Shown: positions 1,832-7,202 of the stretch, piece after piece
How the letters are laid out: every line of letters begins with the position of its first letter
Numbering within the stretch: position 1 is the first letter of the stretch
Origin: Ignavibacteria bacterium
Lineage (GTDB): Bacteria; Bacteroidota; Ignavibacteria; UBA10030; SZUA-254
DNA length: 7,202 nucleotides
NCBI GenBank assembly: GCA_005877655.1
Contig: VBOC01000055.1
Span: 1 to 7,202, forward strand
Direction: 5' to 3'
Notes under the pieces: model-generated
What the model was told of the DNA's origin: nothing
Databases searched by the model: none
The model's input: only the letters and a program-made list of their open reading frames with translations
Translations under genes and position numbers: made by a program

Positions 1832-3352
1832 TTATTGGGGCAGGAAGAGCCCAAAATACGTTCCCTCGGCGCATTGCTTCTCGGTGATCGATTCGACCGT
1901 CACAAGATTCGCGAAGGGATTGATGTGAGAGGCGACAGGAATCCAACCGCCAGTTCCATGCCAGAAGCAGCGAAGCGAGCGCTCGTCCTTGACTGCTTTT
2001 CCGACCTCGCGATCCATCGAAGATGCGTCGTGATACATCCACTCTAGTTTTCCCGTGAATTTTGCGGCGGCGGGGATGGGCGTGATGCGGAGCCATCGTC
2101 TTTCGATGCGGACACTGTCGAGCCCGCGGATGTGGGAAAGCCAGAGCGTAGCGATCTGGCTTCCGTCGAGTCCGACAAAATGATAGGCCACCCCCGACTT
2201 CGTTGTTTTCACTGTGACGTTATTATTGATCCCGCTCGGGGGATTGATATACGTGGCGAGAAGAAAATTCCTGCGGGCGGTGACATAGTATCTCACGGTC
2301 TGAACGTTGTCGAGAAAGTCCTGGTATGTCCCCCATTTCTGCGAATCGGCCGCCACGTCGGTGTGGATGAGGGCGACGAGGCTGTCGATGCGCGCATCCA
2401 TCCGTTCCTCCGTGAATACCGTACGGAGAATCGTATCAACCCGCCGGCGCAGCGCTTCTCGAAGCGCCGGGTTTTTCCACAGGCGGTCCCGGAGGACGTT
2501 TGACGGTCCCGCAAGCGGGGGAAAACGATAATCAAAACCGTCATTCAATAACGATCCGGGATATGGGACTGCCATGTCGCCGGTGAGCCCCATCGATTCA
2601 TCATAGTCCCAGGGAATGATAACCCACTGCTGTGATCGGCGGGACGGGTCGTGGTACAAATAGTAGTTCTTCGTGTAGGAATCCCCGCTCGAAAGTATGA
2701 TGTTGCCCGCAAACCAGTTATAGACACTGTTGATGTCGAACAGCCTCCCGAGCATGACGGCAAACAAGGAATCGGGCGTTTTGTTGAGCGAGTCCAGCAT
2801 CGACAGGAGATCCGGGTAGTCGTCCTCTTCTCCGATTTCTTTTGGGTAGTAGAGCTTCAGCAATTCCTTCGGTTGAACGGTCAAATCGGCGAGCGAGTAA
2901 AATCCGCCGGCATTATAGAGTGAGGCGGAGGTTTTTCCGTGCAGCGCGAGGAAGTTCTTGTCGACCCTGTCGACTACCGCGTAGAGCCCCTGGTATGCAC
3001 CATTGATGGTGAGCCGGGCATAGGACGCCCGCGGTGCCAGCATGCCGAGATCGGCGAAGAAATCCCAGGAAAGTTTTTCGCGCAGAAACGACTTATCAGT
3101 GTACATCGAGTGGAGGTTCAGTTGATGAACCCCGTTGAAGTGATGCTTTGCGGGAAACTTGATGCGGTAGGATTTCTTTGGAAAGTAACGGTTGGATCGC
3201 CCCTTGAAACGGATCTGAACATCCTTCCACACTTTTCCCGCGTGCTCAAAAGTTGCGGGTAGAACCTCGTTGCTGAATGCAATCTTGAACTCTGGAATCT
3301 GGGCCGAAGCGGTTGCGTGCGCGAGGACGATCGATAGAAGGAGCTTCTTCAA
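1832..3352 (-). CDS. Secreted CotH-family kinase-like protein
   Basis: The start is a TTG giving MKKLLLSIVLAHATASAQ, a clean signal peptide with cleavage after SAQ. The ribosome site is poor (AAAAGG about 15 bases upstream), so the start rests mainly on the signal peptide. The CotH domain spans roughly residues 25-370. It shows IRFKGRS (47-53), KKSYRIKF (59-66), the LTINGAYQGLYAVVDRVDKNFL segment, KNYYLYHD, and IIPWDYDESMG with the D249-Y-D251 pair. In characterised CotH proteins these regions form an atypical protein kinase that binds ATP and phosphorylates Ser residues of spore-coat proteins; many Gram-negative homologues are exported and have unknown targets. Residues 370-506 form a beta-rich C-terminal region I do not recognise. 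The gene begins 51 bases after the HD-domain stop, so co-transcription is likely. Confident on family, not on substrate. Confidence 0.88.
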   Translation of the reverse strand: MKKLLLSIVLAHATASAQIPEFKIAFSNEVLPATFEHAGKVWKDVQIRFKGRSNRYFPKKSYRIKFPAKHHFNGVHQLNLHSMYTDKSFLREKLSWDFFADLGMLAPRASYARLTINGAYQGLYAVVDRVDKNFLALHGKTSASLYNAGGFYSLADLTVQPKELLKLYYPKEIGEEDDYPDLLSMLDSLNKTPDSLFAVMLGRLFDINSVYNWFAGNIILSSGDSYTKNYYLYHDPSRRSQQWVIIPWDYDESMGLTGDMAVPYPGSLLNDGFDYRFPPLAGPSNVLRDRLWKNPALREALRRRVDTILRTVFTEERMDARIDSLVALIHTDVAADSQKWGTYQDFLDNVQTVRYYVTARRNFLLATYINPPSGINNNVTVKTTKSGVAYHFVGLDGSQIATLWLSHIRGLDSVRIERRWLRITPIPAAAKFTGKLEWMYHDASSMDREVGKAVKDERSLRCFWHGTGGWIPVASHINPFANLVTVESITEKQCAEGTYFGLFLPQ

Positions 3353-3400: not shown

Positions 3401-3436
3401 TGCTCAACCTGATCGGTGCTGCTCAAGCTGATCGGT
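3401..3436. repeat. 19-base tandem duplication at the HD-domain stop
   Basis: TGCTCAACCTGATCGGT (3401-3417) and TGCTCAAGCTGATCGGT (3420-3436) differ at one base and lie 19 bases apart. On the coding strand the first copy reads TDQLEQ. Because 19 is not a multiple of three, the second copy is read in another frame and gives HRSG and then the TGA stop. The present C-terminus was thus created by the duplication. Confidence 0.85.
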
Positions 3437-3889
3437 CATGGCCCTTTGCCGAGCTCTCGCCCGCTTCTCGAGTCCGTTGCGCACGACGATCACGGTTCTC
3501 TGGAATGCATGCTCGAAAAGGTCGGCCTTACGCAAAGCGGCAGCGCGCTCGGCAATCGCCTTCGAAACAACGTGCAGATCGAAGTAGACTACACCTTTCT
3601 CCTCGTAGCACCGAATATCGTGAACAACCCTTTTGCCCGACTCGTCGAGAGCATCGGCAATGCGCAGCAGAGCGGCCAGCCGCTTCACCAGGATCTGATC
3701 AGCCTCGTTCAGCCCGTTCAGATGCTGAAATTTCAATTTTATATACGGCTGACGGTGAAGGTACGCGGTATTTGCGACGATCTCTTTGTCATGTTCGGGG
3801 ATTGAGTCAAAGTGATGCTCCATGATGGCCTTAAATGTGAACTCTTCATGCCGGGATTCCGATAAGGCATGTCCGATGTCATGGAGCAT
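3404..3889 (-). CDS. Ppx/GppA-type HD domain (C-terminal part of a split protein)
   Basis: The ATG-initiated ORF gives 161 residues and opens directly in the MLHDIGH motif. It continues with HHF, IVANTAYLHRQ, and VKRLAALLRIADALDES. The order matches the HD domain at the C-terminus of exopolyphosphatase/guanosine pentaphosphatase (Ppx/GppA) proteins, where LHDIGH and LLRIADxLDxS are typical. Open coding continues upstream of the ATG to at least 4003 (HDFDHPRKVAELAVSLFDQT). This is the family's first helix, so starting at the ATG would cut the domain. No ATG, GTG or TTG lies in frame there, and upstream of 4003 the frame becomes meaningless while the neighbouring frame encodes kinase sequence. 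I infer that this was fused to the kinase-like domains and is now separated by a one-base frame change. The metal-binding His-Asp is intact. The last residues come from a 19-base tandem duplication (3401-3436). Confidence 0.75.
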   Translation of the reverse strand: MLHDIGHALSESRHEEFTFKAIMEHHFDSIPEHDKEIVANTAYLHRQPYIKLKFQHLNGLNEADQILVKRLAALLRIADALDESGKRVVHDIRCYEEKGVVYFDLHVVSKAIAERAAALRKADLFEHAFQRTVIVVRNGLEKRARARQRAMTDQLEQHRSG

Positions 3890-4884
3890 CGCCGAATAGA
3901 GCAGCAGCCTCCGTTCGCGCTTCCCGAAGCCGTGGAGACCTGCCGTCTGGTCGAAAAGGGAAACCGCGAGCTCTGCGACTTTTCTCGGGTGGTCGAAGTC
4001 GTGATCGTTTCTCCTTGTTGGAGCGCCGGGAGAATCATTGGCCGGAGATCTGCAAGAATATGCTGATGTGGTTCTTTTCCTGTTTCCGTTACCGGTATCC
4101 TTTGCCAGCCATCTCTCCCGGCCAATGCACGATAGACCGCTGCGATCCCGGCGTCAGCCGAGCTGTCATTTGTGGCCGTCCTCGTTGCATTATTGGGAGA
4201 CTTTATAGAACGCGGCGGTGATCTTTTCGCAATAACGCGGGCGAGCGCATCATCGAGGAAGAACGTCAGATCCGGCTTGATATGAAAAACGTGGAACATC
4301 GTCTTGAACCACCCTGGCTCGAAGCCGTTTGTGACTCCTTCGGCATACAGGCTCGAGAGGTATCCGTCCATGATCACTAGAGCACCCGACTCTAGTGCGG
4401 GAATGATCAGTTGCTCGTAGTACAATGCTATCTCCGACGCGGCCAGGAAAACCTTCGCCGGCAAAGAGAGTGATGTTTTTCTGAGCGCCTTGCGGGTGAG
4501 TTTGATTCCGATCCACGAATTGCCCAAAGACGCCAATCGCACATCGTATCCCTCTGTCAAGAGCTCATTATAGATGAGGTTTGTCTGCATGGTCGAGGCG
4601 ATTTTGTCCGATCCTTCGATGACAACGAGTCGGCCCGGAAAGGAATGCTTTACAAGCGCCGTGAACGGATCAGGCTCCGATTTCCCCTCTGACCTATCCG
4701 ATTTCCCCTCTGACCTATCCGATTTCGCCTTTGACGCCTCCGATGAACGATTGAATTCTGCGCCACGCGTGAATCCAGTCCTGTGGCCGTTCCCGTTTCT
4801 CCATTCTTTCAGATGCTCTTCGACGATCGAAGATACGTAGTCATGAACCTGAGCGATCGGGGCTGAGGCGTCGATTTTGATCAA
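3739..4884 (-). CDS. Second thymidylate-kinase-like domain, inactive P-loop (middle part of a split protein)
   Basis: Coordinates follow the open frame from a TTG; that start has no ribosome site and is actually a Leu codon inside the end of the preceding kinase domain. Residues 1-28 (IKIDASAPIAQVHDYVSSIVEEHLKEW) complete that domain. Residues 29-80 are a polar linker with SDRSEGK repeats. Residues 84-293 form a second nucleoside-monophosphate-kinase fold (GRLVVIEGSDKIASTMQ, LVIMDGY, DLTFFLDD). The P-loop is decayed: against GxxGxGKT it reads G91-SDKIAST, with the catalytic Lys replaced by Ser97, and the DRY motif is DGY (173-175). It is probably a pseudokinase. A Ser/Asn-rich insert (RSPPRSIKSPNNATRT) sits where the lid would be. 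Residues from about 294 onward, including the ORF's whole C-terminus, are out-of-frame readings of the HD domain and should be ignored. Confidence 0.65.
   Translation of the reverse strand: MIKIDASAPIAQVHDYVSSIVEEHLKEWRNGNGHRTGFTRGAEFNRSSEASKAKSDRSEGKSDRSEGKSEPDPFTALVKHSFPGRLVVIEGSDKIASTMQTNLIYNELLTEGYDVRLASLGNSWIGIKLTRKALRKTSLSLPAKVFLAASEIALYYEQLIIPALESGALVIMDGYLSSLYAEGVTNGFEPGWFKTMFHVFHIKPDLTFFLDDALARVIAKRSPPRSIKSPNNATRTATNDSSADAGIAAVYRALAGRDGWQRIPVTETGKEPHQHILADLRPMILPALQQGETITTSTTREKSQSSRFPFSTRRQVSTASGSANGGCCSIRRCSMTSDMPYRNPGMKSSHLRPSWSITLTQSPNMTKRSSQIPRTFTVSRI
4676..4738. repeat. Three tandem 21-base repeats coding for a linker
   Basis: Two identical 21-base units (4676-4696 and 4697-4717) and a third diverged unit (4718-4738) encode the heptad GKSDRSE in the polar linker between the two kinase-like domains. 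The unit length is a multiple of three, so copy-number change keeps the frame. The repeated residues are highly charged and predict a disordered tether. Confidence 0.9.
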
Positions 4885-4935
4885 TCCGAAGTCAGCCTGA
4901 ATCCTGTCATATTCGGCGGAGACCCTTGACTGGAA

Positions 4936-5532
4936 TTACCTGAAGGAGTGCCGCGCGTTTTCCTGCCGGATGACGTCCATCCCCGATTCGTAGTAGCCGG
5001 GGGGATTGCCGCCGTTGCGGTCGACGATTCGCCCGAGTGTTTCTTCAACCGAAGCGGTGCAGTAAAATGCCAGATCGGGCGTTGGAGCAAGAGCATACAG
5101 GCTTTCCACCCACCGTCTATCCACATTGCGCGAGAGATCGCGCGCAAGCGCAGTATAGGCGTATCGATCGGCGATCACGATTGCGCCCTCCTGGAGCGCC
5201 GGCATGATGATATTCTCCAGCCGGTACATGAAGTCCGCCGCGTGCAGCGTGCTATAGAGGTAGGGGGTGAGAAGTTTTGCTTTTTTCGCTCGCTTAATCG
5301 CCTTGGAAATGAGGCGGGAGGAATTCCAGGTTGTGATGACGACGGGAAAGGCCTTCTTCCTCAAGTCCCGCGCGAGCAGTTCAATCTGAGTCGTCTTTCC
5401 GGCACCGTCCAGCCCCTCGAAAACGATAAGCCGGCCCGGGGCGTTTTTGCCGAAGGTCCCTTCGCGAGTTGCCGGGTTAGGCGATCCGTCGAGTATCAGA
5501 GAATCATGCCAGAAGTTGAGGCTACTTTCCAC
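4936..5532 (-). CDS. Thymidylate-kinase-like P-loop domain, cut short by an in-frame TAA
   Basis: The GTG start at 5530-5532 is the first possible one after an in-frame TGA; no clear ribosome site is visible. About 33 extra N-terminal residues precede GRLIVFEGLDGAGKTTQ, with an intact P-loop at 40-47 (K46, T47). DRY is at 122-124 and SGMDVIRQENARHSFR ends the ORF. The region after the P-loop reads TTWNSS, not the TREPGGT of true dTMP kinases, so the substrate may not be dTMP. As I recall it, this matches a subfamily of 'thymidylate kinase' genes that often occur as pairs. The stop at 4936-4938 falls within SFR-(stop)-FQSRVSAEYDRIQADFG, where the family has a residue such as Lys and then continues. 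The same frame goes on for the missing last 60 or so residues, so one base (AAA or GAA to TAA) could explain it. Confidence 0.75.
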   Translation of the reverse strand: MESSLNFWHDSLILDGSPNPATREGTFGKNAPGRLIVFEGLDGAGKTTQIELLARDLRKKAFPVVITTWNSSRLISKAIKRAKKAKLLTPYLYSTLHAADFMYRLENIIMPALQEGAIVIADRYAYTALARDLSRNVDRRWVESLYALAPTPDLAFYCTASVEETLGRIVDRNGGNPPGYYESGMDVIRQENARHSFR

Positions 5533-5867: not shown

Positions 5868-5869
5868 CT
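5842..5869. repeat. Imperfect CTGA/CAGT tetranucleotide repeat
   Basis: Seven four-base units of the CTGA type, with three perfect units in the centre (CTGACTGACTGA) and diverged flanks (GCCTGT, GCCTGA). The tract overlaps the TAG stop of the M61 gene (5868-5870) and runs on beyond it. Tracts of this kind can change length by slippage. Confidence 0.8.
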
Positions 5870-7202
5870 ACCGGGACCCTGTGCCTGTGTCGAGCGGGGC
5901 TCCGAGCCAACCTTTATAAATATCGCGCTGGAGCGTTGTGGGTTCCGAATTCTTGACGATGAGGTACGCCGGCACGGGGGCGTGCGCGACTTTCAGCTTG
6001 CATTCGCGAAGATGATCGCGTTGAAATAAGGTGAGCGTTACAACCTCGCCCTCTGCGAGCCGGCTGATTCGCTCGGCCAAATCAGAGGAGCGAACGCGAT
6101 ACCCATTTAGGGCCAGAATTTCATCACCCAGGTCAATGCCGGCTTCGTAGGCGGGAGAGCCCGGAATAACCTGAGCGACCCTCGTCCGATCGCCGGCGTC
6201 GGTGGTCGCAATGCCGATCCAGGGCTTCGCGAGGCTATCCTTCTTGGCCAGCTTTAGTCCGGCATACCCGAGGTACTCCTCCCACGGCAGGGGTGCCGTT
6301 CCGAAGACGTATTCATTGAAAAAGTGCTGGAGACTGTTTCCGGCGAATTCTTCCGCGACACCTTGAAAATCGGCAAGTGTGTATCCGCCTCCGGACAGCG
6401 GGAAGCGCTTATACATCGACCGCATGACGTCGTCGAGAGAATGCTTGTTGGCAGAACGATGTCTGATGTCGAGGTCGAGCAGCGCGCTGATGTTCGCTCC
6501 CTTCCCATAGTAGTCGGATTCCAGGTTGAACGACTGCTCCCTTTCCCGCCAGAATTTTATCCAGGCGTCAAAGCTGGACTCAACCAAAGGCTGAACGCGG
6601 TTCCCGGGCCGTTGGCGGTCGCTCTGGATCGACGCAGCCGCACCTTCCAGGTACTTCTCGGGCGTCGTGAAACCCGCGCGAACGAGCATGAGATTGTCAT
6701 AGTAGGAAGTCGTTCCCTCGGCAATCCATAGTTCACGGCAATAGTTTTCCCTCGTGTAGTCATACGGAACGAGGCCTTTCGGCCTGAGCTGTTTGACGTT
6801 CCATGTGTGGAAGTATTCGTGCGCCACCAGGTTCAGGAAGCCTTTATAGGAATCGGGATTCTTAAAAATAAAGGGCGAGGTCCCAAGGATAGTCGAATTG
6901 ATGTGCTCTGTCCCGCCTCCCGATCGCGGCGTGCAATGAACGAGAAACACGTAGCGCTTATACGGATACTCTCCCCAGAAATTCCGCTCGGTAGTTATGA
7001 TCTTGCTCATGTCCCGGATCAGCGTATCGGCGTTCCAGTCTCCGGCGCCGGAGATGCTGAGCACATGCGGAATTCCGTCCACATGGAAGGTGAAATCCTT
7101 CTGCGTCCCGATCTCTATCGGACAGTCGACAAAGTAATCGTAATCCGGGGCCGGGAAGTTTCGCCCGTTGCCTTCCAGTCCCGTCGTCACATGCCAGTTC
7201 TT
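5868..7202 (-). CDS. M61 glycyl-aminopeptidase-like metalloprotease with PDZ domain (5' truncated)
   Basis: The frame is open to the right edge (KNWHVTTGLEG...), so the N-terminal beta-domain and any signal peptide are outside the window; the GTG at 7190 is internal. Numbering from the first visible codon, GGGTEH is at 95-100 and the zinc motif HEYFH at 128-132, followed by WNVKQLRPKGL. The third ligand is E162 in WIAEGTTSYYDNLML. This is the M61 signature; characterised members release N-terminal Gly or Ala from peptides. A C-terminal PDZ domain follows at about 320-425 (IGIATTDAGD, VAQVIPGSPAYEAGIDLGDEIL), with the usual carboxylate-binding fold, and then a short tail. All catalytic residues are present, so the enzyme looks active, probably periplasmic or outer-membrane associated by family habit. 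The stop codon lies in the tetranucleotide repeat. Confidence 0.93.
   Translation of the reverse strand, partial: KNWHVTTGLEGNGRNFPAPDYDYFVDCPIEIGTQKDFTFHVDGIPHVLSISGAGDWNADTLIRDMSKIITTERNFWGEYPYKRYVFLVHCTPRSGGGTEHINSTILGTSPFIFKNPDSYKGFLNLVAHEYFHTWNVKQLRPKGLVPYDYTRENYCRELWIAEGTTSYYDNLMLVRAGFTTPEKYLEGAAASIQSDRQRPGNRVQPLVESSFDAWIKFWREREQSFNLESDYYGKGANISALLDLDIRHRSANKHSLDDVMRSMYKRFPLSGGGYTLADFQGVAEEFAGNSLQHFFNEYVFGTAPLPWEEYLGYAGLKLAKKDSLAKPWIGIATTDAGDRTRVAQVIPGSPAYEAGIDLGDEILALNGYRVRSSDLAERISRLAEGEVVTLTLFQRDHLRECKLKVAHAPVPAYLIVKNSEPTTLQRDIYKGWLGAPLDTGTGSR

Follow-up and report, generated by a model that had tools for sequence, protein, structure and literature searches.

A fused family of kinase-like, pseudokinase-like, and HD domains

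The window analyzed here, a 7,202-nucleotide stretch from an Ignavibacteria bacterium (positions 1 to 7,202 of contig VBOC01000055.1, assembly GCA_005877655.1), encodes three joined domains on its minus strand from 5532 to 3404: a thymidylate-kinase-like domain with an intact P-loop (TMK1), a degenerate thymidylate-kinase-like domain (TMK2), and a Ppx/GppA-type HD domain. In the window the coding unit is split by a TAA stop and a frame change, whereas 31 homologues carry all three domains uninterrupted and in the same order. Our tentative reading of these sequences is that the protein is a predicted nucleotide kinase that carries an inactive partner domain together with a phosphohydrolase-type HD domain and may serve polyphosphate metabolism. 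The parts of the unit are as follows.

4936..5532, minus strand: TMK1, thymidylate-kinase-like, P-loop intact; GTG start, ends at the in-frame TAA; PF02223 E 7.6e-23, TIGR00041 88.6 bits
5392..5415, minus strand: Walker A motif of TMK1, GLDGAGKT; counterpart intact in 31/31 fused homologues covering the site
4936..4938, minus strand: in-frame stop TAA, falling late in the TMK1 domain
4009..4935, minus strand: TMK2 (degenerate thymidylate-kinase-like domain), preceded by the linker and the last stretch of TMK1; read in the frame of TMK1; PF02223 E 3.2e-10
4591..4614, minus strand: Walker A place of TMK2, GSDKIAST, without Gly-Lys-Ser/Thr; motif lost in 32/32 fused homologues
about 4009..4012, minus strand: frame-change junction in the homology; about 14 residues of the nearest homologue, P0025, are absent from the window here
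3404..4009, minus strand: Ppx/GppA-type HD domain with the H, HD, H, H, D residues; runs to the stop at 3404

The initial annotation, made from the letters of the sequence, had placed these three domains in one broken unit at these coordinates, and Pfam searches of each part bear this out. A scan of reference genomes identified uninterrupted fused versions of 701 and 699 residues in two Ignavibacteria metagenome-assembled genomes (MAGs; loci L001 and L002), and a third of 646 residues that ends at a contig end (L003). We then compared the L002 protein with 5.8 billion proteins; the best 7,993 candidates by shared words were scored, giving 93 rows at E <= 1e-10. The fused family comprises P0002-P0033 among these rows, with 31 members of 661-706 residues containing all three domains in the same order; P0030, without TMK1, was dropped from this count. 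P0034-P0037 and P0170, which show other partial domain combinations, several with garbled stretches, were excluded from the analysis. Those fused-family rows that bear a name are labelled dTMP kinase.

The window and P0025 share 83% identity over TMK1-TMK2 and 84% in the HD part. When the pieces of the window were aligned separately, they retained 36/36, 10/10, and 26/26 (72/72 in total) of the residues invariant in the 31 homologues. The possibility that the fusion is an artefact of reading past errors was rejected on the strength of the 31 uninterrupted proteins, which also uphold the earlier proposal that an active-looking kinase, a kinase with a dead P-loop, and a Ppx-type HD domain form one protein. 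The parts occur as separate genes too, but not always, as the fused proteins demonstrate. Judged from these alignments, the ancestral gene was not split, and the break is confined to this assembly or strain. Literature searches of open-licence full texts returned no paper describing either this fusion or a tmk1-tmk2-ppx operon; as far as that literature shows, the fused protein is an undescribed variant.

Features of the three domains

TMK1 passes both models of ordinary Tmk, PF02223 (81.6 bits, cut-off 27) and TIGR00041 (88.6 bits, cut-off 83.25), and shares the P-loop with ordinary bacterial Tmk, but differs from it in its motifs. Ordinary Tmk carries SxxAYQG after the DR motif, as seen in 15/15 ordinary tmk genes here. 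This motif is absent from TMK1, with ARD or a near variant at that place in the fused rows and in the unfused operons described below, and REPGGT is replaced by (E)WNSS. The ordinary comparison set was selected by the string REPGG, leaving the AYQG count (15/15) alone as independent. In the tree, ordinary Tmk and TMK1 form separate clades.

The closest solved relative of TMK1 is archaeal ST1543 (PDB 2PLR, 4NZY, 4RZX, and 5H70), deposited as dTMP kinase. TMK1 shares the WNSS and DRYxYTxxARD motifs and the fold of this type; the fold comparison of the whole predicted model spans residues 2-214 only. ST1543 has one domain, without the TMK2 and HD parts of the fused protein. A housekeeping thymidylate kinase role for TMK1 was rejected on two grounds, the differing motifs and the presence of an ordinary tmk as a separate gene in 15/15 genomes checked. 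The initial description of the first domain as thymidylate-kinase-like with an intact P-loop holds, with one correction: by its motifs and predicted fold the domain is of the ST1543 type and not of the ordinary one. A third, weak thymidylate-kinase-like gene of about 220-280 residues is present in the window's own genome (C74:6457-6969) and in most relatives checked.

TMK2 reaches PF02223 (40.4 bits) but fails TIGR00041 (37.7 bits); its fold assignment is based on Pfam and structure prediction. A search with TMK2 alone as query recovered only TMK2 itself. In the tree, all 13 sampled fused TMK2 domains cluster together (100/100).

Pfam, a PDB sequence search, and the fold all assign the HD domain to Ppx/GppA domain III, in agreement with the initial annotation. 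The HD piece of the window, taken from its ATG (161 residues), matches PF21447 (Ppx-GppA_III) with E 3.7e-5 and 24.0 bits, below the curated cut-off of 27.3, while the intact homologues score above it (L001, 2.4e-15; L002, 2.2e-12; L003, 2.8e-14). The metal ligands of HD phosphohydrolases follow the motif H, HD, H, H, D, and this set is kept in 31/31 fused proteins and in the window piece. Although domain III is common to the fused protein and Ppx/GppA exopolyphosphatases, the fused proteins of L001, L002, and L003 lack the catalytic half of the latter (PF02541), and the domains precomputed for P0002-P0033 do not include it. The HD Asp, invariant in the fused proteins, is replaced by Glu in 10/19 Ppx proteins neighboring the unfused loci. 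Another fusion of polyphosphate-related parts was seen in P0085 from Methanomassiliicoccus, where a Ppx-type HD domain, a metallophosphatase, and CHAD lie in one protein.

Unfused tmk1-tmk2 pairs and polyphosphate genes

Separate, adjacent tmk1 and tmk2 genes were found in 11 of 120 related genomes (the window's own included), and the fusion in three besides that of the window. The unfused form is present in G001, of the same genus as the window genome. When the window's phylum was sampled broadly, only 4/395 genomes, own included, gave a match at 1e-30, so matches are rare in this phylum. Of 392 genomes from the phylum to which the Planctomycetota MAG L004 belongs, 12 matched, each with the two genes adjacent.

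A ppx gene adjoins the pair in 19/23 of these genomes (10/11 and 9/12, respectively), with only the HD half read in G562. No Ppx was seen up to the contig end in G045 or within the stretch read in G488, G518, and G633. SixA-like genes lie near the pair in 8/11 and 3/12 genomes; six of these proteins were checked by Pfam, and a profile made from them supplied the further counts. CHAD, detected by Pfam, is nearby in 5/11 operon genomes, and PPK2 stands beside the gene group in G058, G067, and G120, the last with two PPK2 genes. On the Planctomycetota side, CHAD and PPK2 were looked for with single-sequence profiles only. An 802-residue TMK2-Ppx frame in G088 was considered as a fusion intermediate and rejected, as stops appeared between the two genes on re-reading. 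In G003 (L117), tmk1-tmk2-ppx has a response regulator before it and a Pst-like transporter set after it (phosphate-binding-type protein, permease, and ABC ATPase), a gene order which suggests that this group is likely in a phosphate-response setting.

The operons on the Bacteroidota and Planctomycetota sides contain the same three types of parts as the fused protein, and their TMK2 likewise lacks the Walker A Lys: Arg replaces it in 21/22 operon TMK2, the exception being G120. This count of 22 omits G568 (frames unclear), and the TMK1 count of 21 omits both G568 and G088, where TMK1 is cut by the contig end. The operons differ from the fusion in having separate genes, a full Ppx instead of a bare HD domain, and a less degenerate TMK2. 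In the tree, 21/22 operon TMK2 cluster together (100/100), and fused TMK1 is not nested with the TMK1 of near relatives. Since the Walker A Lys is already lost in unfused TMK2, the sequences indicate that the inactive partner predates the fusion or arose twice, and that the pairing of a live with a dead kinase is old.

We also surveyed polyphosphate genes. In 21 genomes, PPK1 was found in 2, PPK2 in 4, VTC in 0, and CHAD in 8. Among the 11 operon genomes, PPK1 is missing in 10, PPK2 is present in 4, and all of PPK1, PPK2, and VTC are missing in 6; on the Planctomycetota side, PPK1 occurs in 2/12. One short Ppx is present in each of the fused genomes G005, G009, and G011, and two in each of the operon genomes G001 and G003, of which the operon copy carries HD. 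The window genome, 79% complete, yielded no Ppx.

Possible function and alternative explanations

A role in polyphosphate metabolism is suggested because the same parts occur in other bacteria as genes neighboring polyphosphate genes. The initial annotation had guessed this link from the HD part alone; the gene neighborhoods of the unfused pairs now support it, and the regulatory role that the annotation also suggested would be a further possibility. In the mechanism we propose, TMK1 would bind ATP and phosphorylate a nucleoside monophosphate, or, like the related PPK2 enzymes, exchange phosphate with polyphosphate. TMK2 would occupy the place of the second subunit in the usual TMK dimer and control or complete TMK1, much like class II PPK2 with its inactive domain. 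The HD domain, separated from the catalytic half of exopolyphosphatase, may bind or cleave a ligand rich in phosphate; one chain would then both form and remove a nucleotide or polyphosphate product. PPK2 shares common ancestry with TMK, and class II PPK2 resembles the fused protein in that a single chain combines an active P-loop kinase domain with an inactive one, as described in PMC8776046. Class II PPK2 has its inactive domain first, whereas the active domain leads in the fused protein; moreover, the fused protein has no PF03976 match, and PPK2 has no HD domain.

Several results weigh against a polyphosphate role. No Ppx, CHAD, or PPK gene adjoins the fused genes of the window, L001, L002, and L003, whose neighbors are CotH, M61, DUF4956, and porin genes. 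Polyphosphate synthesis is not shown in two of the three near-complete fused genomes, because none of PPK1, PPK2, VTC, and CHAD was found in them. The absence of PPK1 and PPK2 is also not specific, since it is shared by six relatives that carry neither the operon nor the fused gene. Pfam scans of the same four fused loci gave no PF03976 (PPK2) row for TMK1 or TMK2, and the NCBIfam PPK2 model scored far below threshold (E 0.024; 14.3 bits against a cut-off of 301.8). TMK1 just passes the NCBI dTMP-kinase cut-off, which makes plain dTMP kinase activity possible. Descent of fused TMK2 from operon TMK2 is not established either, because the joining of the two groups in the tree is ambiguous; fused TMK2 sits on a very long branch, and long-branch joins were flagged.

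The protein could instead be a broad-specificity (deoxy)nucleoside monophosphate kinase of the ST1543 type that serves nucleotide salvage and has no direct polyphosphate role; TMK2 and HD would then contribute stability or allosteric control. The dTMP kinase score and the deposition of ST1543 under that name favor this explanation, as does the Sulfolobus tokodaii enzyme, which reportedly binds purine and pyrimidine nucleotides. We regard it as unlikely overall, given the separate ordinary tmk in every genome checked, the replacement of REPGGT and AYQG by (E)WNSS and ARD, and the polyphosphate-enzyme genes adjoining the unfused pair. Still more doubtful is the proposal that TMK1-TMK2 represents a third type of polyphosphate kinase, making polyphosphate or spending it on nucleotides where PPK1 and PPK2 are lacking. 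PPK1 is missing in 10/11 and 10/12 operon genomes, and 6/11 are without PPK1, PPK2, and VTC. Crenarchaeota, Sulfolobales among them, contain polyphosphate with no PPK known there, according to PMC6864096 and PMC7831078, and a figure legend in PMC10892726 places a 'dTMP kinase', which may be of the ST1543 type, in a crenarchaeal CHAD and PPX region. Such an enzyme, common to Sulfolobales and bacteria without PPK1 or PPK2, could with a fused HD domain make and trim its product in one chain, though this is improbable: no match to PPK2 was found, and, as PPK2 is present in 4/11 operon genomes and two copies adjoin the pair in G120, the pair is not simply a PPK replacement.

It is also rather unlikely that the window copy is a decaying pseudogene. 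The stop and the frame change with its roughly 14 missing residues would fit decay, but all 72 invariant residues are kept, also beyond the stop, and identity to P0025 is 83-84% on both sides of the frame change. In addition, the assembly's own ordinary tmk (contig C134:4261-4775, L131) is similarly broken, being split over two frames with profile positions 53-68 unmatched; decay is implausible for an essential gene, and an assembly fault is therefore suggested. Against assembly error, open reading frames in 107,504 sampled bases are just slightly below those of relatives in length, with a median of 307 residues (309-373 in relatives) and a coverage of 0.87 (0.92-0.96 in relatives). The break in the window may be either an assembly fault or a recent break.

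Surrounding genes

Two further genes flank the fused unit in the window.

1832..3352, minus strand: CotH-kinase-type protein, downstream neighbor
5868..7202, minus strand: M61 peptidase with PDZ domain, upstream neighbor; extends past the window into a scaffold gap

The window ends at 7202, just before a run of N in the scaffold (contig C3, L130), which the M61 peptidase gene enters. In the TMK1-TMK2 linker (about 4675-4730), SDRSEGK occurs twice as an in-frame repeat, and P0025 has a shorter linker. Downstream of the fused gene, 4/4 loci (window, L001, L002, and L003) carry a CotH-type gene; in L003 it is three genes further along, with DUF4956 and Porin_O_P genes intervening. VTC is a partner of CotH- and DUF4956-type genes, but was rejected as an explanation for these neighbors, as it is found in 0/21 genomes. 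A literature search for a link between CotH, DUF4956, and polyphosphate gave nothing relevant among the 15 matches listed of 48.

Implications

Taken together, the 'dTMP kinase' labels conceal a conserved pair of a live and a dead kinase, predicted from sequence, that is tied to exopolyphosphatase parts by gene order and by fusion. The pair may thus offer a concrete candidate for an enzyme step of polyphosphate metabolism in organisms that possess neither PPK1 nor PPK2, including the Sulfolobales, for which PMC6864096 and PMC7831078 describe polyphosphate but no known polyphosphate kinase.
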